NCBI RefSeq assembly: GCF_008124525.1
Contig: NZ_VNHJ01000004.1
Location: forward strand, 186,001 to 250,000
Length of the DNA stretch: 64,000 nucleotides
Direction of reading: 5' to 3'
From: Oceanicella actignis
Lineage (GTDB): Bacteria; Pseudomonadota; Alphaproteobacteria; Rhodobacterales; Rhodobacteraceae
Program-made: the position numbers and the translations under genes
Notes under the pieces: generated by a model
Seen by the model: only the letters and a program-made list of their open reading frames with translations
What the model was told of the DNA's origin: nothing
Database searches by the model: none
In this document: positions 11,616 to 44,173 of the stretch, piece by piece
Layout: every line of letters starts with the position of its first letter
How positions within the stretch are numbered: the stretch's first letter is position 1

Positions 11616-12473
11616 ATGAACGCGCAAACGCCGCGCGCCTATCCGCCCATGCCCAGGGTGCGGCCGCTGAGCTGGGCCGACATCCGCGACGCGGTGGCCA
11701 GGGGGCTGGACGATTTCCGCGCCGCGCCGCTCTACGGGCTGTTCTTCGGCGGCATCTTCGCCGCGGGCGGGCTGTTGATGCTGGCCTTCCTGACGCGGCT
11801 CGAGATGCCGTGGATGATCCTGTTCCTCGGGGTCGGCTTCCCGCTCATCGGACCCTTCGCGGCGGTCGGGCTTTACGAGGTCAGCCGCCGGCGCGAGCTG
11901 GGCCTGCCGCTGAGCTGGCGCGCCGTTCTGGGGGTGGTCTTCGCCCAGAGCCGGCGCGAGCTGGGCTGGATGGCCTTCGTGACGCTCTTCATCTTCTGGG
12001 TGTGGATCTATCAGGTGCGGCTCTTGCTGGCGCTGTTCCTGGGGGGCAAGTCCTTCTCCTCGCTGGACGAGTTCCTGACCGTCGTCGCGACCACCCCCGA
12101 GGGGCTGGGCTTTCTGGCGGTGGGCACGCTCGACGGCGCCTTTCTGGCGACGGTGCTGTTCTCGGCCACGGTGACGGCGATTCCGCTGCTTCTGGACCGC
12201 GAGCGCGACTTCATCACGGCGCTGATCGTCAGCTTCCAGACGGTTTTCCGCTCGCCCGTGGTGATGATCGGCTGGGCGTGGATCGTGACCGCGACGGTGA
12301 TGCTGTCGATGCTGCCGGCCTTTCTGGGGCTGGTGGTGACGCTGCCGGTGCTGGGCCATGCGACCTGGCATCTTTACCGCCGCGCGGTCGAGCCCGACGA
12401 GGCCCCCACGCAGGACGCGGCCGGCGCGCCCCCGGGCGCGGGCGACGCCGACGCGCTGCGCGGGCCGGCCTGA
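11616..12473 (+). CDS. DUF2189 integral membrane protein
   Basis: Inner-membrane protein of 285 residues with no known biochemical function. It shows the DUF2189 pattern: an N-terminal cytoplasmic stretch ending RVRPLSWADIRDAVARGLDD, then LYGLFFGGIFAAGGLLMLAF as helix 1. Further helices follow (MILFLGVGFPLIGPFAAVGL, MAFVTLFIFWVWIYQVRLLL, GAFLATVLFSATVTAIPLLL, WAWIVTATVMLSMLPAFLGL) and a polar, Pro/Ala-rich tail. GCAGGGGGAA precedes the ATG. A hairpin terminator begins 12 nt after the stop. Confidence 0.9.
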   Translation: MNAQTPRAYPPMPRVRPLSWADIRDAVARGLDDFRAAPLYGLFFGGIFAAGGLLMLAFLTRLEMPWMILFLGVGFPLIGPFAAVGLYEVSRRRELGLPLSWRAVLGVVFAQSRRELGWMAFVTLFIFWVWIYQVRLLLALFLGGKSFSSLDEFLTVVATTPEGLGFLAVGTLDGAFLATVLFSATVTAIPLLLDRERDFITALIVSFQTVFRSPVVMIGWAWIVTATVMLSMLPAFLGLVVTLPVLGHATWHLYRRAVEPDEAPTQDAAGAPPGAGDADALRGPA

Positions 12474-12485
12474 GGCACGGGAAAT

Positions 12486-12520
12486 GGCGCGGCGACCCTT
12501 GAGATCGCCGCGCCTGCCTT
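12486..12520 (+). terminator. Hairpin terminator after the DUF2189 gene
   Basis: A perfect 10-bp stem, GGCGCGGCGA (12486-12495) with TCGCCGCGCC (12505-12514), closes a 9-nt loop and is followed by TGCCTTT. The T run is short, so termination may be partial. Confidence 0.6.
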
Positions 12521-12532
12521 TGAATGCGGAAC

Positions 12533-12546
12533 TGAAATCAATTTCA
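12533..12546. other. Inverted repeat TGAAAT-CA-ATTTCA in the convergent gap
   Basis: A perfect 6-bp inverted repeat with a 2-nt spacer in an unusually AT-rich stretch between two convergent genes (gap 12474-12840). No start codon with a ribosome site follows on either strand nearby, so I cannot say whether it is a protein-binding site. Confidence 0.3.
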
Positions 12547-12771
12547 ACCAAGAGGGACCGGCGCGCCCCGCGACGCACGCCTTGTCAAATCAGGCGCCGC
12601 GGCTTTCGCCGCTCCGGTCGGGATCCCGTGGGATCCGTCGATGCCGGCGGCTTCCCCTCCGCCGGTCTTCTCCCCCCATGCGATTGCGTCATCAACGATT
12701 CCGAAACTATCGATTCGTCGTGACAGGATCGTGACGTTGCGTCGGGCGGGCGCGAAAAAACGCCGAAGCGG

Positions 12772-12819
12772 CTGAACCGCCCCCCGAACCGCCGTCCGAA
12801 CCGCCCCGCGAATCGCGCC
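12772..12819. repeat. 12-bp tandem repeat after the FAD dehydrogenase gene
   Basis: Four consecutive 12-bp units of the type CCGAACCGCCCC: 12772-12783, 12784-12795, 12796-12807 and, more decayed, 12808-12819. A further weak copy lies on each side. It lies 22 bases beyond the stop of the minus-strand gene ending at 12841. Confidence 0.65.
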
Positions 12820-12840
12820 CGAAGCGCCCCCGCGCCGGCC

Positions 12841-14499
<1,659 letters not shown>

Positions 14500-34100: not shown

Positions 34101-35144
34101 ATGACCCGAGATCCGCTCGCCGACATTCCCGACGACGCCCCGATCCTTGTGACGGGCGCGGCGGGGTTCATCGGCTATTTCCTGGCGCTGCGCCTGCTCG
34201 AGGCGGGCAAGACGGTGGTCGGGCTCGACAACCTCAACCCCTATTACGACGTGCAGCTCAAGACCGACCGCCTGGCGCAGCTGCGCGAGCGGCCGCGATT
34301 CGCCTTCCACCAGGCCGACATCGCCGACCGCGACGCGCTGCGCGCGGTCTTCGACGCGCACGAGCCGCCCTTCGTGGTCAACCTGGCGGCGCAGGCGGGG
34401 GTGCGCCACTCGATCGACAATCCGCACGCCTACGCCGAATCGAACCTGACCGGCTTTCTCAACGTGCTCGAAGAGTGCCGCCGCACGCAGGTGCGCCACC
34501 TGGTCTACGCCTCGTCCAGCTCGGTCTATGGCGGCAACGTCAAGGCGCCCTTCTCGGTGCGCGACAGCGTCGATCACCCGGTCAGCCTCTACGCCGCGAC
34601 CAAGAAGGCCAACGAGCTGATGGCCCATGCCTATGCCGACCTTTACGGGCTGCCCGCCACGGGTCTGCGCTTCTTCACCGTCTACGGGCCGTGGGGGCGG
34701 CCGGACATGGCGTATTTCAAGTTCGCCAAGGCGATCTTCGAGGGCCGCCCCATCCAGATCTACAACAATGGCGAGATGGAGCGCGACTTCACCTATGTGG
34801 ACGACATCGTCGAGGGGGTCGCGCGGCTGATTCCGCACATCGCCCGTCCGAACCCCGATTTCGACCGCATGAACCCCGATCCCGGCTCGAGCTGGGCGCC
34901 GCACCGGGTCTACAACATCGGCAACCGCCGCAAGGAGCGGCTGATGGACATGGTCCGCATCCTTGAAGAGGCGGCCGGGCGCGAGGCGATCAAGCAGTTC
35001 CTGCCCATGCAGCCGGGCGACGTGCGCTCGACCTGGGCGGACGTGACCGAGCTTGAGCGCGAGGTGGGCTTCCGCCCCGACACGCCGCTCGAGGTCGGGC
35101 TGCGCCGCTTCGTCGACTGGTATCGGGCGCGCTACGCGGTCTGA
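34101..35144 (+). CDS. NAD-dependent epimerase, UDP-glucuronate 4-epimerase type
   Basis: Interconverts UDP-glucuronate and UDP-galacturonate for surface polysaccharide. The 347 residues are typical of the LspL/CapI group. They carry ILVTGAAGFIGYFLALRLLE (NAD loop), VVGLDNLNPYYDVQLKTDRL, the LAAQAGVRHSIDNPHAYAES motif of this branch and ASSSSVYGGN. YAATKKANELMAHAYADLYG holds the catalytic Y-xxx-K, and FFTVYGPWGRPDMAYFKFAK follows. TYVDDIVEGVARL and YNIGNRRKERLMDMVRILEE complete the fold. It has its own promoter and is convergent with the lasso peptidase gene, 48 nt away. Confidence 0.92.
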   Translation: MTRDPLADIPDDAPILVTGAAGFIGYFLALRLLEAGKTVVGLDNLNPYYDVQLKTDRLAQLRERPRFAFHQADIADRDALRAVFDAHEPPFVVNLAAQAGVRHSIDNPHAYAESNLTGFLNVLEECRRTQVRHLVYASSSSVYGGNVKAPFSVRDSVDHPVSLYAATKKANELMAHAYADLYGLPATGLRFFTVYGPWGRPDMAYFKFAKAIFEGRPIQIYNNGEMERDFTYVDDIVEGVARLIPHIARPNPDFDRMNPDPGSSWAPHRVYNIGNRRKERLMDMVRILEEAAGREAIKQFLPMQPGDVRSTWADVTELEREVGFRPDTPLEVGLRRFVDWYRARYAV

Positions 35145-35192: not shown

Positions 35193-35639
35193 CTAGTCTG
35201 GGGCGGCGGGCGGATCCGCGGCCGGCGCGAAGGCGGCAAGCTCGGGGCTGAGCGCGCCGCCCGTCGCCGGCAGGCCGTCCAGCTCGAGCCAGGCATGGGC
35301 GGTCAGCGCGCCGTCGGCGCCGCGCAGAGCCCCAAGGCGCAGCTCGGCGTCGCGCCCCAGCGATTCGAGCCACAGCTTGCCCGCCAGCGCCTGCACCAGG
35401 CAATCGGCCCGCCAGGGCGCGCGCCGCGCCGCCGCCGCCAGCGCCCAGCGCATCTCGTCCGCCGTCGGGGCGCCGGCGCGGGGGCGGCCCGGCGCGCGAG
35501 CGGGCTGGCGCAGGCGGCGCAGCACGGCGGGGGCGTCCATGCGCGCATGCATCATCCGCGCCTGTGCCAGCCGCGCCCAGGCGGCGCAGAACAGGCGCAG
35601 CTCGCGCGCCGTGGGGGGGAAGCGGCGCGCGCGCCTCAT
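35193..35639 (-). CDS. Lasso peptide biosynthesis B2 protein (leader peptidase)
   Basis: Transglutaminase-like cysteine protease that cuts the leader off the lasso precursor. The 148 residues match stand-alone B2 proteins. The catalytic set is visible as RADCLVQALAGKLWLESLG (Cys), LTAHAWLELDG (His, then Asp). The N-terminal half is basic and helical: MRRARRFPPTARELRLFCAA. The start at 35639 was chosen because it overlaps the exporter stop (ATGA, 35636-35639); a longer frame to 35684 lies wholly in the exporter tail. It is the third gene of the A-D-B2 arm and works with B1 (40926-41438), which presents the leader. Confidence 0.92.
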   Translation of the reverse strand: MRRARRFPPTARELRLFCAAWARLAQARMMHARMDAPAVLRRLRQPARAPGRPRAGAPTADEMRWALAAAARRAPWRADCLVQALAGKLWLESLGRDAELRLGALRGADGALTAHAWLELDGLPATGGALSPELAAFAPAADPPAAPD

Positions 35640-37840
35640 CGCCCGGACGAGCCGGCCGCGCGGGCCGGCGCCGGCGCGCCGCAAGCGCCGCGGCCGGTCG
35701 CTGGCGGGGTCCGGGCGTCCGGCGCGCCAGACGGCTGGGCGACGCCGCCGCGCCCTGGCCGCGGCGGCGCACCTTCGCGCGCATCGCCCTCGGCCGGACG
35801 CGGGTTCGCTTCGTCGCCCGGCCGGTCCGAGTCTTCGGTGCCGCCGGACCCCAGCGCCTGCGCCGCGCCTTCACCCGAGACGCCCCCGGCCGGGCGCGGG
35901 TTCGTTTCATCGCCCGGCCGATCCGAGGCTTCGGCGCCGCCGGACCCCGGCGCCTGCGCGGCGCCTTCGGCCTCGACCTCGGCCGCGCGCGGGATCGTCT
36001 CATCATCCCGCCGATCCGAGGCTTCGGCGACGTCGCCCGGATGCGCGCGCCGCGCGGGCGCCTCGTCCAGTCCCGCCGGAGCCTCGGCCGCGGCCATGCG
36101 CCCCAGAAAGCCATGCGCGGCCATCTGCGCTCGCGGGCCCGCGGCGGCCAGGCGCCCCTCCTCGATCACGGCGATGCGGTCGACCCACGCCACCGAGGAC
36201 AGCCGATGCGCGACGACGAGGATGGTCGTCTCGGCCCGCAGCGCGGCAAGCCGCCCGACGATGCGCGCCTCGTCCAGCGGGTTCATCGCCGAGGTCGCCT
36301 CGTCCAGCGCAAGAAAGCGCGGGCGGCGCAGGATCGCGCGCGCCAGGCAGATGCGCTGGCGCTCGCCCGCCGACAGGCGATCGCCCCGGTCGCCCACCTC
36401 GGCGTCCAGCCCGCCCATGGCGCGGGCGCGCTCGGCGAAGCCGACCAGCTCGAGCGCGCGCCACATCGCCGCCTCGTCGGCCTCGGCGGCGCCCATGGCC
36501 AGATTGGCGCGCAGCGTGTCCGGCGCCAGGAAATCGTCGCGGCTGACCAGCGCCACCTGCGCGCGCCAAGCGGCCAGGTCCGATTCGGCCAGCGGCGCGC
36601 CATCGACCAGCACCTGCCCGGCGCTCGGCGCCATCAGACCGCACATGAGGTCGGCGAGAGTCGTCTTGCCCGCGCCCGACAGGCCCATCAGCGCCGTCGC
36701 CGTGCCCGCGGGCAGGTCCAGCGTCACGTCGCGCAGCGCCGGCGTCTGCGCGCCCGGATGCGTGTGCGACAGCGCGCGCACGCTCACCCGCGCGGGGCCG
36801 CGCGCGCGCGCCAGCGCGGCGGCGGGGCCGCGCGGCTCGGCGGCGGCGGCGAAGTCGCGCACCTGGCGCTCGTATTCGGCGAAGGCGGCGGCGACCGAGA
36901 TCAGCTCCTGCAGCAGCTCATGCGCCGACATCAGCCGCGGCAGAAGGCGCATGAACAGGACCGCCATCAGCGCGCCCTCGCCCGCCGTCATGCCCGAATG
37001 CGCCGCGATCCACAGGATCGCCGCCAGCGCCGTCGCGCCGCCCGCCTGATGCGCCAGATCCGAGCGCAGCCCCAGCCGCCGCACCCGCCGCGCCATCTGC
37101 GCCTGCCGGCGCGAGGCGTCCTCGAACGCGGCCGATCCGGTTGCGCCCTGCGCGCCGGGCCGCGCCAGGAAGCGATCGAGCTTCAGATTGTCCAGATACC
37201 GCGCCACATGGTCGTAGAGCCGCGCCGTGCGGCGAAAGACGTCGCGGCTGCCGCGCGCGATCAGGCGGTCGATCCACAGCATCGGCAGCGCCAGCGCCCC
37301 GGCCACGCCCGCCGCCGCCAGCACCACGCGCGGCTCGACCGTCAGCGCCAGCGCGCCCGCCGTCAGCGCCACGCAGCACGCCACGGCAAGGCGCATGGCC
37401 ACGTCCGCGCCATGGGCCAGCTCGTTCGGGGCCATGGTCAGCGCATGGTGCAGGTCGGCCCGCCGCGCGCCCTGCACCTGCGGCCAGCGCGCGCCGGCCA
37501 CCGCGCGATAAAGGCGCATGCGCAGCTTGTGCATCAGCCCGGCCATGATGCGAGCGGCAAGCTCGCCGTACAGATACGCCGCGCCCGCCCGCGCCAGCAC
37601 CGCGGCCAGGAACAACGCCAGCAGCGCCTCGAAGCCCGGCGCGGCGCCCAGCGCGCGCTCGAGCCAGCCGAAGGGGCCGCCCACGGCCGCGCCCTCGAGC
37701 CCGCTTTGCGCCAGCAGGCCGCCAAGGCTGAGCAGCCCGAGCCCCTCGGTCGCCGTGACCAGCGCAAGCAGAACGAGCGCCGGCGCGATGCGCCGACGCT
37801 CGAGCGTCCAGAGGATCCGGGCGAAGCGGAGAATGGTCAT
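35636..37840 (-). CDS. Lasso peptide exporter D (ABC transporter) with repetitive C-terminal tail
   Basis: Membrane and ATPase domains in one 734-residue chain; it would export the mature peptide and give self-immunity. Residues 1-330 are membrane-spanning (ALVLLALVTATEGLGLLSLG near the start). The ATPase has Walker A GLSGAGKTT (about 386-394), signature LSAGERQR (489-496), Walker B FLALDEATSA and H-loop VVAHRLSS. Residues 590-734 are an added acidic/Pro/Gly tail containing three copies of a 31-32-residue unit (SDRPGDE-NPRPA type), encoded by a 93-96-bp DNA repeat. The tail is absent from ordinary D proteins. The start lies 37 nt after the precursor stop; the stop overlaps B2. Confidence 0.93.
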   Translation of the reverse strand: MTILRFARILWTLERRRIAPALVLLALVTATEGLGLLSLGGLLAQSGLEGAAVGGPFGWLERALGAAPGFEALLALFLAAVLARAGAAYLYGELAARIMAGLMHKLRMRLYRAVAGARWPQVQGARRADLHHALTMAPNELAHGADVAMRLAVACCVALTAGALALTVEPRVVLAAAGVAGALALPMLWIDRLIARGSRDVFRRTARLYDHVARYLDNLKLDRFLARPGAQGATGSAAFEDASRRQAQMARRVRRLGLRSDLAHQAGGATALAAILWIAAHSGMTAGEGALMAVLFMRLLPRLMSAHELLQELISVAAAFAEYERQVRDFAAAAEPRGPAAALARARGPARVSVRALSHTHPGAQTPALRDVTLDLPAGTATALMGLSGAGKTTLADLMCGLMAPSAGQVLVDGAPLAESDLAAWRAQVALVSRDDFLAPDTLRANLAMGAAEADEAAMWRALELVGFAERARAMGGLDAEVGDRGDRLSAGERQRICLARAILRRPRFLALDEATSAMNPLDEARIVGRLAALRAETTILVVAHRLSSVAWVDRIAVIEEGRLAAAGPRAQMAAHGFLGRMAAAEAPAGLDEAPARRAHPGDVAEASDRRDDETIPRAAEVEAEGAAQAPGSGGAEASDRPGDETNPRPAGGVSGEGAAQALGSGGTEDSDRPGDEANPRPAEGDAREGAPPRPGRGGVAQPSGAPDARTPPATGRGACGAPAPARAAGSSGR
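35801..36035. repeat. 93-96-bp coding tandem repeat in the exporter tail
   Basis: Copies anchored at CGGGTTCG (35801), CGGGTTCG (35897) and CGGGATCG (35990) are spaced 96 and 93 bases and stay in frame. They share CCGATCCGAGGCTTCGG-type blocks. The third copy is the most diverged. Confidence 0.75.
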
Positions 37841-37877
37841 GCCGTCGCGCGGCGCGGGGCCGCGGCGCGAGCGTGCG

Positions 37878-38018
37878 TCAGGAGCACTTCGCCGTGCTGC
37901 CCAGCGCCGCGTAGCCGCAGGCGTCGCCCGGGTTCTTGGGCTTGCCGTTGCCCTGAGTCGCGGCCTTGACCTCGACCTTGGTCAGCTTGGGGGCCTGCCA
38001 CGCCTGCTTCTCGTTCAT
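37878..38018 (-). CDS. Lasso peptide precursor A (46 residues)
   Basis: Small gene missed by length cut-offs, read directly on the minus strand. The leader has W7-x-x-P10-x-L12, the (Y/W)xxPxL motif recognised by B1-type proteins, then a basic/acidic stretch (KLTKVEVKAAT) and T21-Q22-G23, the usual Thr-x-Gly cleavage context. The C-terminal part from G23 is rich in Gly, Asn, Pro and Lys. It has a single acidic residue (D32), cysteines C34 and C45, and ends in Ser46. D32 must be the ring acceptor if a lasso forms. From G25 the ring would have 8 residues; from G23 it would have 10, which is outside the known 7-9. GAGGACAGG precedes the ATG. It is first in the A-D-B2 operon. Confidence 0.85.
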   Translation of the reverse strand: MNEKQAWQAPKLTKVEVKAATQGNGKPKNPGDACGYAALGSTAKCS

Positions 38019-38050
38019 GTCCTGTCCTCGCAATGCCTACGCCAATGTCT

Positions 38051-38066
38051 TTGCGCTCGGGCGCAA
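38051..38066. promoter_or_regulatory. Inverted repeat TTGCGC-TCGG-GCGCAA at the lasso precursor promoter
   Basis: Perfect 6-bp arms around 4 nt, overlapping the downstream end of the -10 box at 38065-38070. It could be an operator or, once transcribed, a small 5' hairpin. It is a spaced form of the TTGCGCAA palindrome seen at other promoters in the window. Confidence 0.5.
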
Positions 38067-38093
38067 GATAGCACCCTGCGGCGATGAATGAAA
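38065..38093 (-). promoter_or_regulatory. Candidate promoter of the lasso A-D-B2 operon
   Basis: On the minus strand TTTCAT (38088-38093), a 17-nt spacer and TATCTT (38065-38070), about 47 nt before the precursor ATG. The -35 box is weak, as expected if an activator is needed. Confidence 0.5.
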
Positions 38094-38130
38094 GCGCCCA
38101 GAAGCCGGCGCGCGGCCCGGCTCGGGCCGT

Positions 38131-39597
38131 TCAGATCGCGCCGAGGGCGCGCAGAATGCTGAAATCCTGGTGAACGAAGCGTTCAGCGCGCCGGCGCAGC
38201 GCCGCCATGGCCGGCGAGGCCGCCGCCCCCCCTTGCTCCGGCGGTTGCGCGTCGCCCAGCGCCGCGATCAGCGAATCGACGTCCTCGTCCGCGCCGCCCA
38301 GCGCCGCGCCGGCAAGGCGCATGCCCTCGGCGTCGAGCTCGACCGCGCCGCCGATGGCCGGCGCGGCCAGCGCCCGCGGCCCGCCGCGTCCATCGGCCAG
38401 CGCGGCCAATGCGGCGTTGACCGCCCGCACGCGCGGCGGCGCGGCCGGCGGCTCTTCGGGCGCGGGGGCGAGGTCGCCCGAGGACAAGAGCGCCGCCGCC
38501 GCCCGCCGCGCGGCCTCGAGCGTCATGCCCAGCCGCTCGGCGAGCGCGCCCAGCCGCGCCGGGCCGTCGGCGCGCAGCGCCTCGAGCATCGGCCCGTGCA
38601 CGCGCCGCGACAGCGCCGCCGAGCCCAGCAGACCCTCGACCCGCCCCGGCGGCGCCCCGGCCGGCCCCCGCGCCGCAAGGCGCAGCGCCGCCGGATCGGC
38701 CCTGCGCCCGCCGGGCTTGACGAACAGATCCGCACGCCGCAGGCGGCGCGCAAGGATGTCGCCCAGCTCTTCGGCCGCCGGGCCGCCCTGCGGGATGCGC
38801 GCCGCGATCAGGGCCTGCTGCTCGGGGGTGAAATCGAGATCGCGCAGCAGACGCGCCGGGTCGGCCGGCGCCGCCAGCCGCAGTCCCGCCCGCTCAAGCC
38901 GCGCGCACAGCCGCTCCACCCCCTCGGGCGCGGCCGGGCGGCGGAACCAGCGCCGGGCGGCCAGCTCGGGCGGCAGGGCGCGCAGCTCGGCCATCTGGGC
39001 GTCGAACCCGCCATAGCCGCGAAACAGCGCGTGGCTGAGCGCAAGCGCCTCTTCCAGAAGCGCGAGCGCCTGCGCGGCGCGCGCGGCCTCGGAGGCCCCG
39101 GGATCCGTCCGCGCCCAGCACAGGCGGGCCAGCTGGCGCAGGGGCAGCTCCTCGGCCGCGCCGGGAAGGACCTCGTGCGTCAGCATCAACGCGCCGCCCG
39201 GCGCCAGCGCCCGCGCCGCCAGCGCGATCAGGGCCTCGCGCGCGGCCTCGTCCAGCTCCTCCCAGCATTCGGGAACCGCGATCAGGTCGAGCGCGCCGGG
39301 ACCGAACGCCGCCTCGGCCTCGCGCCAGCCGGAATGCACGCGCGCGCCCGACGCGGCGGCCAGCGCGCGCGCGTCCGCGGCCTCGTCCTCGCGCAGGACA
39401 AGGCCGTGCGCCTCGACGCCGCATGCGGACAGGATGGCGGGCGTCACGCCGCGCCCGCAATCGACATGCAGCGCCCGGCGCAACGGGCGGAACGGCGCGC
39501 CGGCCAGGGTCAGCGCGGCCTCGAGGCGCGCGGGCTCGGCCATCGGCAGATGCGCCCAGTGCGAGGCCGCGCCCGCGACATGCGGCGGCGCGCTCAT
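38131..39597 (-). CDS. SAM-dependent methyltransferase with protein-lysine-methyltransferase-type regulatory domain
   Basis: Protein of 488 residues between the two arms of the lasso cluster. Residues 40-140 are a class I methyltransferase fold: motif I ALHVDCGRGVTPAIL, then an acidic strand end (LDLIAVPECWEEL) and ALAPGGALMLTHEVLP. Residues 200-297 resemble the predicted methyltransferase regulatory domain (PF10119): LPPELAARRWFRRPAAPEG, DFTPEQQALIAARI and LARRLRRADLFVKPG. This domain also occurs in rickettsial outer-membrane-protein lysine methyltransferases. The C-terminal 190 residues are Ala-rich and less clear. Motif I is degenerate (HVDCGRGV rather than DxGxGxG), so activity needs testing. 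A role in modifying the lasso peptide is inferred from position. Confidence 0.8.
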   Translation of the reverse strand: MSAPPHVAGAASHWAHLPMAEPARLEAALTLAGAPFRPLRRALHVDCGRGVTPAILSACGVEAHGLVLREDEAADARALAAASGARVHSGWREAEAAFGPGALDLIAVPECWEELDEAAREALIALAARALAPGGALMLTHEVLPGAAEELPLRQLARLCWARTDPGASEAARAAQALALLEEALALSHALFRGYGGFDAQMAELRALPPELAARRWFRRPAAPEGVERLCARLERAGLRLAAPADPARLLRDLDFTPEQQALIAARIPQGGPAAEELGDILARRLRRADLFVKPGGRRADPAALRLAARGPAGAPPGRVEGLLGSAALSRRVHGPMLEALRADGPARLGALAERLGMTLEAARRAAAALLSSGDLAPAPEEPPAAPPRVRAVNAALAALADGRGGPRALAAPAIGGAVELDAEGMRLAGAALGGADEDVDSLIAALGDAQPPEQGGAAASPAMAALRRRAERFVHQDFSILRALGAI

Positions 39598-39753
39598 GGG
39601 CGCGCGCGGCCCGGAGGCGGCGTGATGAAGGCGCTTGCGGTCATGTCCATCCGTTGCGGCGGGCCTGCGGTTGTGCGACGACCATTACGCAAGCCGCCCG
39701 CGCCCGGCAAGCCGGGCCGGCCGCCCGGGCCGCGGACGAGCGCCGAGGATGCC

Positions 39754-40857
39754 ATGACCGAGCCCCCCGAGCAGAACCCCGCGCAGAGCCCCGAGCGGAA
39801 CCCCGACCGCAAGGCCCGACGGAGCGCCGCCCGGCATTCCGCCCCCGATTCCCACCCCGATTCCCACCCCGATTCCCCCGGGCCCTTGACCGGCGGCCCC
39901 GATCCGGGCCCCACCGATCCGGCGCCCGCCCGTCTTCTGAGCGCGCACGGCCTGGTCTTCGCCTGCCCCTTCGACGTGCCCGGCATGGCCCCGGCGCCGC
40001 CCGGAGCGCGGGCCGACGTGACCGCGCGCCTCGGGGCGGTTGCGCCCGCGGCGCTGGCGCGCGCGCCGCTGGCGGGCGATTGCCGCATTCTGGGGCCGGG
40101 CCGGGTCGCCATCGAGGACGCGGCCTTCCGCGCCCTGATCGAGGAGGGCGCGCGCATCACCATCGACCCCTCGCCCGCCGCCGGCCCCGGCGCGGGCGCG
40201 GGTTTCGGCCCGCAGGCGGCGCGGCTGCTGCTGGGCTACGGCGCCAGCGCGGTGCTGCTGCACCAGCGCGGCGGGCTGCCGCTGCACGCGGCCGCCGTCG
40301 CCCTGCCTCGGGGCGCGGCGCTGTTGCTGGGCCCGGCGGGGGCGGGCAAGTCGACCCTGGCCGCGGCGCTGGGCGGGATGGGATTCGCCATGCTGGCCGA
40401 CGATCTGACCGCGCTCGATGACCGCGCGCCCGGCGGGCCGCTGGTTCAGCCCGCCATCGGCACGGTCAAGCTCTGGCCCGACAGCGCCAGGGCCCTGGGT
40501 GGCCCGGGCGCGCGCGTGCCGGTCGAGGGCATGTCCAAGACGATCCTGCGCACGCGCGAGAACGCGCCGGCGCCGGCGCCGCTGCGGGCGATCGTCGTCC
40601 TCGACTGGCTGCATCCGCCCGAGGCCGCCCCCGAGACCAGCGAGATGAACCGCATCGAAGCCCTCGACGCCCTGCGCGGCGCAATCCAGCGCCCGGCTCT
40701 GGCGCGCGCGCTTGGGCGCGAGGGCGAGATCCTGGCGCGGCTGGCGGCCCTGGCCGGCCGCATCCCGGCGCTGCGCCTTGCGCGCCCGCGCCGCTATGGC
40801 GCGATGCCCGAGGTTGCAAAGCTGATCGCGGACTGCATCATCGGCGACGCGTCCTGA
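39754..40857 (+). CDS. HPr-kinase-like protein of the lasso cluster
   Basis: Probable kinase of 367 residues, related to HPr kinase/phosphorylase (HprK) and to the kinases that tailor lasso precursors. Residues 1-60 are disordered (repeated HPDSHPDS, Pro and Glu). The conserved core has LPLHAAAVALPRGAALLLGPAGAGKSTLAAALGGMGFAMLADDLTALDD. In it, GPAGAGKST is the P-loop (about 193-201) and LADDLTALDD the second HprK motif. VEGMSKTILRT and IVVLDWLHPPE follow. The start at 39754 follows GAGGA; an in-frame ATG at 39625 would add 43 unstructured residues. It is first in the plus-strand arm, 68 nt before B1. Confidence 0.85.
   Translation: MTEPPEQNPAQSPERNPDRKARRSAARHSAPDSHPDSHPDSPGPLTGGPDPGPTDPAPARLLSAHGLVFACPFDVPGMAPAPPGARADVTARLGAVAPAALARAPLAGDCRILGPGRVAIEDAAFRALIEEGARITIDPSPAAGPGAGAGFGPQAARLLLGYGASAVLLHQRGGLPLHAAAVALPRGAALLLGPAGAGKSTLAAALGGMGFAMLADDLTALDDRAPGGPLVQPAIGTVKLWPDSARALGGPGARVPVEGMSKTILRTRENAPAPAPLRAIVVLDWLHPPEAAPETSEMNRIEALDALRGAIQRPALARALGREGEILARLAALAGRIPALRLARPRRYGAMPEVAKLIADCIIGDAS
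39845..39877. repeat. 12-bp coding tandem repeat in the kinase N terminus
   Basis: CCGATTCCCACC at 39845-39856 and 39857-39868, then a partial copy to 39877. It encodes repeated HPDS and is in frame. Confidence 0.75.
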
Positions 40858-40925
40858 CGCCCGCCCCGGGGGCGGCGGCGCGGGCGCAGGCGAGGGGCGC
40901 GGCCCCTGACGCGAAAGGAGGGCCG

Positions 40926-41438
40926 ATGATCTTCGACGATGCGGAAAACATGCTCTTGCGCCGCGCTCGGGGCGTGCTCGAAGCGCGCATGAGCGCGGAC
41001 GAGCTGGTGCTGCTGGCCGCGGATGGGCGCGTCTATCTGGACCTTGACCGCATCGGCGCCGAGATCTGGGAGCGCCTGGCCAGGCCGATGCGCCCGGCCG
41101 ATCTGGCGCGGGACCTTGCGCGCGATTTCGACGCGGCGCCCGAGCGCATCGCCGCGGACATCGGTCCGTTTCTGGCCGAGCTGGTCGCCGAGGGCGCGCT
41201 CGAGCTGATCGCAGGCCCCTTGCCGGCCGCGGATGCGGGCGAGGTGGGCGAAGGCGCGGCGGATCGGGGCGCAAGCGATCAGGGCGCCGCGGGCCGGCCC
41301 ATGGCGGATGCGGGCGGCGCGGATGAGGGCGGCGCGGACGCGGGCGCGGCGGCGGACGAGCCCGGCGCGGATGCGGGCGACGCCGGCCGGGGCGGCGCGG
41401 ATACGGGCGACTCAAATGGGGCCCCCGGCCGCGCATGA
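40926..41438 (+). CDS. Lasso peptide biosynthesis B1 protein (PqqD-like leader-recognition protein)
   Basis: RiPP recognition element that binds the precursor leader and delivers it to B2 and C. Residues 1-98 have the PqqD winged-helix pattern: EARMSADELVLLAADGRVYL, LDRIGAEIWERLARPMRPAD, LARDLARDFDAAPERIAADI, GPFLAELVAEGALEL. Residues 99-170 form an Ala/Gly/Asp-rich tail with 15-bp coding repeats that typical B1 proteins (80-100 residues) lack. AAGGAGGGCCG precedes the ATG. The stop overlaps the cyclase gene (ATGA, 41435-41438), so the two are translationally coupled. Confidence 0.9.
   Translation: MIFDDAENMLLRRARGVLEARMSADELVLLAADGRVYLDLDRIGAEIWERLARPMRPADLARDLARDFDAAPERIAADIGPFLAELVAEGALELIAGPLPAADAGEVGEGAADRGASDQGAAGRPMADAGGADEGGADAGAAADEPGADAGDAGRGGADTGDSNGAPGRA
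41301..41345. repeat. 15-bp coding tandem repeat in the B1 tail
   Basis: Three units of the type GGCGCGGATGAGGGC spaced 15 bases, with the core GCGGATGnGGGC at 41304, 41319 and 41334. Weaker copies continue to about 41420. Confidence 0.7.
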
Positions 41439-43456
41439 GCGGCCCGACCGAGGATCCCGACGCGTTCGAGCGCGCGCAGCGCTGGTTCGCCGGCGCCTTC
41501 GACCCGCGCGGACGCGCCGATCTGCTCGAGGCGGCGATGCGCGCCATGCGCGCCGCCCCGCCCGTCGCCGACGCCCCGGGCCTGCGCTGGCGCGAAGCCG
41601 CGCCCAGCCCCTTCCTGCGCGTGGCCGCGGCGGCGGCCGGGGCCGATCCCGCGCCGATGATGACCGCCGCCCCCGCGCCCGATGGCGGGCCCGCCCTGTT
41701 CGCCGCCGGCGACGCGACGCTGTTCGCCCCGGAGTTCGCCCCGGAGTTCGACCAGACGTTCGACCAGGCGTTCGACCCTGATTTCGCCCCGGGGTTCGGC
41801 CAGACGCTCGTCCCGGGTTTCCGCCCGACCGATCCGGCGCGCGACGCGGCCGCCGCGCCTCGGGCCGCGCGCGACCTGCGGCGCCTGGCGGCGCTGGCCG
41901 CCGCCGGCCGGCTGGACGAGGCCGAGGGCGTGTTCGCCGCGCTCATGCACGATCCCCGGCGCCCGGCGCTGACGCTGCTGCGCGATCGCTGGGGCCACGG
42001 GCCGCTCTGGATCGCGCGGCTGGCGGGGGGCGCGACGCTGTTCGCCAGCTCGCCCCACATGCTGCTGGCGGCGCCGGGGGTCTCGCGCACGCCCGATTTC
42101 GCCGCCTGCGCGCTGTTCCTGGCCGCGCGCCAGCCGGGGCCCGAGCACGCCTACTTCGCCGACATCGCCCAGGCGCCGCCGGGCGCGGCGCTGCGCCTTG
42201 GGCCCGAGGGCGAATCGCGCCGCGCCGTCGCCCCGCTGGGCCCCGATCCGGCGCTTGCCGGGCGCTCGGCGGACGAGATCGCGCAGGCCGTGGCCGAGCG
42301 CGCGCGCACGGCCACGCTGGCGCGCGCGCCCGGATCGGGACCGGCGGCGATGATGCTGTCGGGCGGGCTCGATTCGGCGCTGATCGCGGCGCATCTGGCC
42401 GCGCGCGGCCCGGTGGAGGCGTTCGCCTCGGTTCTGGGCCCCGGCGCGGACCCCGCCCTGACCGACGAGCGCGCCCATCAACGCGCGCTGGCGCAAGCCC
42501 TGCCCGGGCTGCGCCTGCACGAGACGCCGGCGGGCGATCTGGACCTGCTGGCGCCCTCGGCGCATTGGTGGCGGCAGGCGGCCTCGCCGAACCCGGACGT
42601 GATGCACGCGACGCAGCTGCTGCTGGCGCAGGCGGCCGCGGATCTGGGCGCGGATGCGCTGTTCAGCGGCTTCGGCGGCGATTTCGCGCTGTCCTCGCAT
42701 GGCGAGCCGGCCTTGTTCGAGTTCCTGGTCACCGGCCGCTGGCGCGCCCTGGCGCCCGAGCTGGCGCGCCGGCGCGCGGCGGGCGGACGCTGGCGCAACA
42801 TCCTGCTGGGCGGCTTCGTCAAGCCGCTGCCGATTTACGAGGCCTGGCGGCGCCTGCGCCCGGACGCCGCCGCGCGCGAGCTGCCGGCCATCCTGCGCAC
42901 GGATCCGGCCATAGCCGCGCGCCTGGCGCAGACCGGGTGCAGCGCGCATCTGCGCTATCATCGCACCGTCGCCGCCGAAGAGGCCGCGGCGCTGGCCGCC
43001 CTGCCGGCCTGGACGGGGCAGGCGCATGACCTGCCGGGCGGTCGGCGCATCGCGCAGCGCCTGCCGCTTCTGGACGCGCGACTGCTGCGCGCCGTGCTGG
43101 CCGCGCCCGTCTCGCTCAAGCTGGGGCGCGGGCCGGACGGCCGATGGCGCAACCGCGCGCTCATCCGCGCGCTGCTGCGCCCCCTGGTTCCGCCCGCCAT
43201 CGCCGAGCGCGAGGACAAGGACCTGTTCCAGCCCGATTTCGGGCGCCTGATGCGCGCCGCCCTGCCCCGCATCCGCGCCGACGCGCCCGAACTGGCGCGC
43301 AGCGAGATCTGGCGCGCGCTGATCGACGCCGAGCGCTGGCGCGCCGCGCTGGACGAGGCCGGGCGCGCGCCCGATGCGGCGCTGCTGTCGCTGGCGCATC
43401 CCATCCTGCTGCCCTGGCAGCTGGGCGACTTCCTGCGCCGCGCGGGCGCGCCCTGA
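41435..43456 (+). CDS. Lasso peptide cyclase C (asparagine-synthetase-like)
   Basis: ATP-dependent enzyme that activates the ring Asp or Glu by adenylation and closes the macrolactam. The 673 residues have an N-terminal glutaminase-like region without the catalytic Cys2 (starts MSG); LLRDRWGHGPLWIARL is the remnant of the D-R-x-G-x-x-P-L motif. The synthetase half has the PP-loop MMLSGGLDSALIAAHLA (about 307-323) and FSGFGGDFALSS. Residues 97-130 are an inserted Phe/Asp/Pro repeat (FAPEFAPEFDQTFDQAF) from a 12-bp DNA repeat. Loss of Cys2 separates it from true AsnB. ATGA overlap with B1. Confidence 0.92.
   Translation: MSGPTEDPDAFERAQRWFAGAFDPRGRADLLEAAMRAMRAAPPVADAPGLRWREAAPSPFLRVAAAAAGADPAPMMTAAPAPDGGPALFAAGDATLFAPEFAPEFDQTFDQAFDPDFAPGFGQTLVPGFRPTDPARDAAAAPRAARDLRRLAALAAAGRLDEAEGVFAALMHDPRRPALTLLRDRWGHGPLWIARLAGGATLFASSPHMLLAAPGVSRTPDFAACALFLAARQPGPEHAYFADIAQAPPGAALRLGPEGESRRAVAPLGPDPALAGRSADEIAQAVAERARTATLARAPGSGPAAMMLSGGLDSALIAAHLAARGPVEAFASVLGPGADPALTDERAHQRALAQALPGLRLHETPAGDLDLLAPSAHWWRQAASPNPDVMHATQLLLAQAAADLGADALFSGFGGDFALSSHGEPALFEFLVTGRWRALAPELARRRAAGGRWRNILLGGFVKPLPIYEAWRRLRPDAAARELPAILRTDPAIAARLAQTGCSAHLRYHRTVAAEEAAALAALPAWTGQAHDLPGGRRIAQRLPLLDARLLRAVLAAPVSLKLGRGPDGRWRNRALIRALLRPLVPPAIAEREDKDLFQPDFGRLMRAALPRIRADAPELARSEIWRALIDAERWRAALDEAGRAPDAALLSLAHPILLPWQLGDFLRRAGAP
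41723..41818. repeat. 12-bp coding tandem repeat (8 units) in the lasso cyclase
   Basis: TTCGCCCCGGAG at 41723-41734 and again at 41735-41746, then TTCGACCAGACG, TTCGACCAGGCG, TTCGACCCTGAT, TTCGCCCCGGGG, TTCGGCCAGACG and CTCGTCCCGGGT in exact 12-base steps. All are in frame. Confidence 0.85.
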
Positions 43457-43540: not shown

Positions 43541-44173
43541 CTACAGGCCGCGCCGCTGGCGCAGCGCGGCGGTGATGGTGCCGTCGTCCAGGTAGTCCAG
43601 CTCGCCCCCGACCGGGACGCCCTGCGCCAGCGAAGTGACGGCGCTCAGCCCCTCGAGCTGCGCGGCGATGTAATGCGCCGTGGTATGCCCGTCCATGGTC
43701 GCGGGCAGGGCCAGGATCACCTCGCGCACCGCGCCCTCGCGCACGCGCCGCGCGAGGTCCGGGATGCGCAGCTCGTCCGGCCCGATCCCGTCAAGCGCCG
43801 ACAGCACGCCGCCCAGGACGTGATAGCGGCCGGCATAGGCGCCCGAGCGCTCCATCGCCCACAGATCCGAGACGTCCTCGACCACGCAGATCAGCCCCGC
43901 GTCGCGGCGCGGATCGGCGCAGATGGCGCAGCGCTCGGCCGTGGCCAGCGCGCCGCACTCGGCGCAGGGGCGCACCGTGCGCGCGACCTCGGCCATGGTC
44001 TGCGCCAGCGGCGCCATGAGCGACTCGCGCCGCTTGAGCAGATGCAGCGCCGCGCGCCGCGCCGAGCGCGGGCCCAGCCCGGGCAGCCTGGCCAGCATCT
44101 CGATCAGCCGATCGACGCCCTCGCCCCCCAGGCCCGGCGCGCCGCCGGGGCGATTCCCAATCTCGTTGCTCAT
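43541..44173 (-). CDS. recR: Recombination mediator protein RecR
   Basis: Works with RecO/RecF to load RecA on gapped DNA. The 210 residues have the helix-hairpin-helix [24 protein letters not shown] and the zinc-finger [22 protein letters not shown]. The Toprim domain is [55 protein letters not shown] and [20 protein letters not shown] form the end. The start at 44173 follows GGGAGGTCGC. The exporter gene of the MsbA type lies 45 nt beyond its start on the same strand. Confidence 0.96.

Follow-up and report, generated by a model that had tools for sequence, protein, structure and literature searches.

A kinase-bearing lasso-peptide gene cluster of Oceanicella actignis with a diverged PKMT-family methyltransferase of doubtful activity

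Do the seven genes flanked on one side by a sugar epimerase gene (34101-35144) and on the other by recR (43541-44173) in a 64 kb stretch of Oceanicella actignis DNA (the window; 74% G+C) form a lasso-peptide pathway, and does the methyltransferase encoded among them act on the same peptide? The flanking genes are named from a reading of their translations. Judged from sequence, the interval 35193-43456 is very probably a lasso-peptide cluster.

A putative lasso-peptide cluster in two divergent arms

The minus strand carries the methyltransferase MT (38131-39597), the precursor A (37878-38018), the ABC exporter D (35636-37840) and the transglutaminase-like leader peptidase B2 (35193-35639). The plus strand carries the HprK-like precursor kinase K (39754-40857), the PqqD-like leader-binding protein B1 (40926-41438) and the asparagine-synthetase-like lasso cyclase C (41435-43456). 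The two arms diverge from a spacer of roughly 156 bp between MT and K (39598-39753). ATGA stop/start overlaps in the sequence couple D to B2 and B1 to C, and the start of B2 is most likely the ATG at 35639, which overlaps the stop of D. A promoter scan of the cluster found none, and the one terminator-like stem 3' of MT is at chance level.

The original prediction had called this a complete lasso-peptide cluster with kinase and methyltransferase genes, and all seven genes were indeed found in place; family models confirm B2, B1, C and D, whereas K and MT match weak or general models. The division into two divergent arms that it described also exists, although MT does not stand between them: it is co-directional with A, D and B2, so that the minus arm reads MT-A-D-B2 and the plus arm K-B1-C. 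Contrary to what had been supposed, such a division is not unusual, since many alphaproteobacterial lasso loci mix strands (e.g. our loci L059, L085, L092 and L112).

Several of the cluster genes contain in-frame tandem repeats, which lengthen or break up the proteins. The C-terminal extension of D is built from three copies of a 96-bp repeat (35743-36029), the extended N terminus of K contains 12-bp units (39765-39877), the 77-residue Ala/Asp/Gly tail of B1 contains 15-bp units (41253-41409) and an insert in C contains 12/24-bp units (41722-41829). By manual count, six of the 13 arrays in the 64 kb that score at least 70 fall within this 8.3 kb (Poisson P about 0.008). The arrays are denser here than elsewhere in the window, which suggests that the repeat-rich cluster genes evolve fast.

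Core enzymes, kinase and precursor

The core enzymes were compared with those of 57 other alphaproteobacterial lasso loci, which a search of whole genomes for B2 had yielded. B2 scores 65.5 bits against a cut-off of 33 on the lasso_biosyn_B2 model NF033537, also matches PF13471, and retains C95, H130 and W132, including the catalytic Cys and His that had been predicted. B1 scores 49.5 bits against a cut-off of 23.4 on the PqqD model PF05402. C matches Asn_synthase (PF00733) and, below its cut-off, the lasso cyclase model; in an alignment with 41 lasso cyclases it retains the expected SGGLDS motif (residues 309-314) and other conserved columns, and deviates at two. D is assigned as an ABC exporter by PF00005 and many exporter models. 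Because B2, K and C keep the residues conserved in their families, the core set looks intact.

K matches HprK_rel_A weakly (E 1e-7, below cut-off). It aligns over its whole core with homologues from the 57 loci and has lost none of the columns that at least 75% of them conserve, including H178, GxxGxGKST and D216-D217. Moreover, the spacing of the motif H178-G193-G196-G198-K199-S200-D216-D217 is identical to that of BsfK (PMC10368454). A kinase of this type is present in 35 of the 57 alphaproteobacterial loci and in 18 of 40 further Pseudomonadota loci, and most of the K-linked precursors seen end in Ser, as does that of the window. Lasso kinases phosphorylate the C-terminal Ser of the precursor (PMC9266682, PMC8498205), although BsfK acts on Ser3 instead (PMC10368454). 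The wide occurrence of K in comparable loci, the published motif and the Ser-ending precursor together make the C-terminal Ser of the window precursor a likely target of K. The kinase is, then, not unusual; it is a common and already described helper whose presence belongs to known biology. In L118 a sulfotransferase gene (PF00685; 14643-15497) directly follows the kinase, before B1 and B2 of the lasso cluster, and a 20 kb locus (L099, 1-19900) has matches to three K, three C and two to three B2, and its precursor-like ORFs are of at least three kinds.

The precursor, identified from its translation and a leader-motif scan, reads MNEKQAWQAPKLTKVEVKAATQ followed by the core GNGKPKNPGDACGYAALGSTAKCS. 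Its ATG is preceded by a Shine-Dalgarno-like GAGGACAGG, and no other ORF with the leader motif was found between 34 and 46 kb. The leader carries the W/YxxPxL motif (as WxxPxL) and a Thr two residues before Gly. The core contains a sole acid, Asp, a C-terminal Ser (...AKCS), three Lys (K4, K6 and K22, counted from Gly23) and two Cys, which may form a disulfide. Accepted lasso precursors have a YxxPxL leader, Thr at -2 and an Asp or Glu at core position 7-9 (PMC10368454); in the window precursor the Thr(-2) rule places the sole acid at position 10 (Asp10). Alternative core starts would give a 9-residue ring (from Asn) or an 8-residue ring (from Gly3, the next Gly), and an Asn1 lasso peptide, metanodin, was reported in 2025 (PMC12670498). 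The neutral monoisotopic masses predicted for the window lasso are 2248.036 (10-residue ring from Gly), 2191.015 (9-residue ring from Asn) and 2076.972 (8-residue ring from Gly3); each phosphate would raise them by 79.966 and each methyl by 14.016, and a disulfide would lower them by 2.016. Related Rhodobacteraceae precursors have G1 and D9 with a Tyr at -17, and the window leader is one residue shorter before the Thr. The rule likewise gives an acid at position 10 in a precursor of L098 (14628-14765). The window precursor is a test case that sets ring size against the Thr(-2) rule as determinant of the cut site.

A diverged methyltransferase of the PKMT family

In a Pfam search MT matched generic methyltransferase models weakly, with PF10119 below cut-off, and no PIMT or Methyltransf_2 match was found in Pfam. 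Its relatives within the host family share 22-29% identity with it, and a profile of MT and these relatives matches Rickettsia PKMT1 (E 3e-34) and PKMT2 (E 8e-32). With the AlphaFold model of MT (pLDDT 80, pTM 0.81) as query, the top eight Foldseek chains were all PKMT1/2, matched over the whole length of the model, and the next was Rv2067c, which is a lysine methyltransferase too (histone H3K79). TM-scores of about 0.58 indicate a shared but distant fold, and profile and Foldseek matches both place in MT the PKMT arrangement of a class I SAM domain, a PF10119-like region and a C-terminal domain. Judged by profile and predicted structure, MT is a distant relative of the bacterial protein-lysine methyltransferases (PKMT1/2; KmtA by literature only). 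A lasso methyltransferase of the StspM type (an MmcR-like O-methyltransferase) or of the PIMT type was ruled out by Pfam and by the Foldseek ranks (PKMT 1, MmcR 35).

A motif scan of GTDB contigs revealed no close orthologs of the window MT, family- and order-level searches gave no full-length match above 30% identity, and the rest of the host genome has no PF10119 match. Divergence is also evident at individual positions. Among 29 residues invariant in ten MT relatives, Amylibacter included, the window MT has lost 16 and kept 13. Those lost here and kept in the ten relatives include G46 and D67, of which, by position, the first belongs to SAM motif I and the second is the usual ribose-binding acid, as well as G110, S113, W114, Y141 and the motif Y212-H215-E216-W222; G48, G50, P100 and D104 are among those kept. 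The loss of invariant residues, SAM-site positions included, makes catalysis doubtful, and on this sequence evidence the enzyme may be inactive or retargeted.

A scan of the lasso loci with the MT profile gave a match in Amylibacter kogurei (L059), and A. ulvae (L123/L124) has the same; a genome of the host family carries an MT 100% identical to that of A. kogurei 4G11. Among about 97 Pseudomonadota loci, only the window and these two species have a PKMT-family methyltransferase inside the lasso cluster. In Amylibacter the start of MT overlaps the stop of D, B2 and B1 adjoin, C and a precursor (MKTPYTKPVLTNLSAQKTAQDKGMAAKEMKGMRNVGIAS) are nearby and, in A. kogurei, K lies slightly further on. 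The best profile match of this MT is PKMT1; its AlphaFold model (pLDDT 59) was of too low confidence to be used in a fold search. In the same residue test the Amylibacter enzymes lose 11 of 25, yet keep G46, D67, S113, W114, Y141 and Y212-H215-E216-W222. The two longest branches of the MT tree are those of the window enzyme and of the Amylibacter enzymes, with no supported grouping of the two. On a common origin of the entire cluster with that of Amylibacter the trees differ: in the cyclase tree the window C groups with Amylibacter and L052 with moderate support (88); the kinase tree disagrees, and L052 has no MT.

The cores of the MT-bearing clusters all contain Lys, and the Amylibacter QDKG is conserved in both species. 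Enrichment in Lys was dropped as a pointer to the MT target: by manual count at least one Lys is also present in about eight of 19 other likely precursors (no significant enrichment), and of the three core Lys of Amylibacter, two differ between the species. A member of the MT family near the L105/L118 locus was set aside, as about 7 kb, with an ABC transporter among the intervening genes, separates it from the lasso genes. Further neighbouring genes were noted in the comparison loci. A sugar-transfer-associated ATP-grasp gene (PF14397; L059, 12575-13804) adjoins K in the Amylibacter cluster, and in L113, a lasso cluster from another family of the class, a different methyltransferase, PrmA/MTS-like (12417-13550), lies between C and K; it has a weak PRMT5_C match and, by eye only, a possible PqqD-like tail.

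Which role is then to be assigned to MT? With modest confidence, the locus is best explained as a kinase-bearing proteobacterial lasso cluster whose MT acts, or formerly acted, on the same peptide. It could instead be a degenerate former enzyme, recruited into or stranded in the cluster and losing its function, the product being simply a phosphorylated lasso peptide. This is rather doubtful, although the 16 lost residues, the extreme branch length (8.1), the relaxed or fast evolution suggested by the repeats of the neighbouring genes and the fact that the other lasso loci offer no ortholog beyond the distant one of Amylibacter would all fit. Against decay of this kind speak an open frame of 488 codons, normal GC by codon position, a confident full-length fold, the retention of G48, G50, P100, D104 and other residues, and the Amylibacter parallel.

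An active enzyme could also serve another substrate and adjoin the lasso genes by chance. The known substrates of the outer-membrane PKMTs, whose KmtA subfamily extends to Rhodobacterales, are outer-membrane proteins (PMC11784438), and the remaining, free-standing family members of Rhodobacteraceae are located away from lasso genes. Chance placement is nevertheless improbable: the gene is internal to the cluster, with A on one side and K on the other, and co-directional with A; a gene of the family is translationally coupled within the Amylibacter cluster; and the window MT has diverged far beyond the free-standing members. Methylation of a carboxylate, either at the C terminus (as with StspM) or at the ring Asp (as with the aspartimide-forming PIMTs), has the merit that both are published for lasso peptides (PMC9266682, PMC13352647) and that the lysine-methyltransferase signature is gone from the window enzyme. 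It seems very improbable, given that MT belongs to a different family, with PKMTs as its best matches and the StspM template MmcR far behind, and that the sole acid of the core is already needed for the isopeptide. Returning to a role in the lasso pathway, that MT modifies the window peptide is a serious, if tentatively held, possibility; that it methylates Lys specifically is unlikely. Slightly less likely again is the full proposal, namely that a PKMT-family enzyme N-methylates a core Lys of a phosphorylated lasso peptide, here and in Amylibacter, the window core possibly having a ring of 10 residues or starting at Asn1.

The favoured pathway would run as follows; we infer its reactions and the sequence in which they occur, as well as the cut site and the target of MT, whereas gene content, residues, MT family and the Amylibacter recurrence are read from sequence. 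B1 would bind the leader through WxxPxL, K would phosphorylate the linear precursor at its C-terminal Ser and B2 would cleave off the leader. C would then close the isopeptide ring on the sole core Asp and trap the tail, and D would export the product. MT, a fast-evolving offshoot of the PKMT family, would act or have acted on the same peptide, the core Lys being candidate targets.

Comparison with known lasso and methyltransferase systems

What is new here is the presence, in a kinase-bearing lasso cluster, of an unusual methyltransferase, whose activity, from its sequence, is doubtful. The known kinase-bearing clusters (paeninodin PadeK, ThcoK, SyanK; BsfK) share with the window A, B1, B2, C and D, the HprK-like kinase motif and a Ser-ending precursor; the window adds the PKMT-family methyltransferase and differs in ring position and in its Cys pair. 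The closest parallel for MT, the same family within a K-bearing lasso cluster, is that of A. kogurei and A. ulvae. Its gene order is unlike that of the window (B1-B2-D-MT, with C divergent and, in A. kogurei, K after the ATP-grasp gene), its core sequence also differs, and its enzyme, unlike the window MT, keeps the conserved active-site residues.

Clusters for C-terminally methylated lasso peptides (lassomycin LasF, StspM) likewise include a methyltransferase gene. However, StspM was modelled on mitomycin 7-O-methyltransferase, whereas the architecture of the window MT is the larger one of the PKMTs. The PIMT-like aspartimide formers of lihuanodin and cellulonodin-2 also use a methyltransferase as tailoring enzyme, but of another family, and the window precursor has no second ring Asp. 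Described lasso modifications comprise carboxyl methylation, aspartimide formation, acetylation, phosphorylation and others; neither lysine methylation nor a PKMT-family enzyme was found for lasso peptides in the open-access literature searched. The undescribed tailoring pathway of the original prediction therefore survives in part: the MT family (PKMT/KmtA-like) is unreported for lasso peptides in the literature found and recurs in Amylibacter, but the window MT is without many family-invariant residues, so that its activity is only putative, and the kinase was already known.

In published lasso methylations the modified group is a carboxylate, that of the C terminus or of the ring Asp. The presence of a PKMT-family gene inside the clusters of two Rhodobacteraceae genera hints at other side-chain tailoring and suggests that it could be methylation of lysine. 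Amylibacter would be the cleanest system for such tailoring, because its enzyme keeps the active-site residues. Rickettsia PKMT1/2, Acinetobacter KmtA and OM PKMT-A have a domain order and fold like those of the window MT (tested for PKMT1/2, by literature for KmtA). The known PKMTs, of 535-554 aa, modify outer-membrane proteins, whereas the window MT, of 488 aa, is highly diverged and has lost conserved active-site residues.
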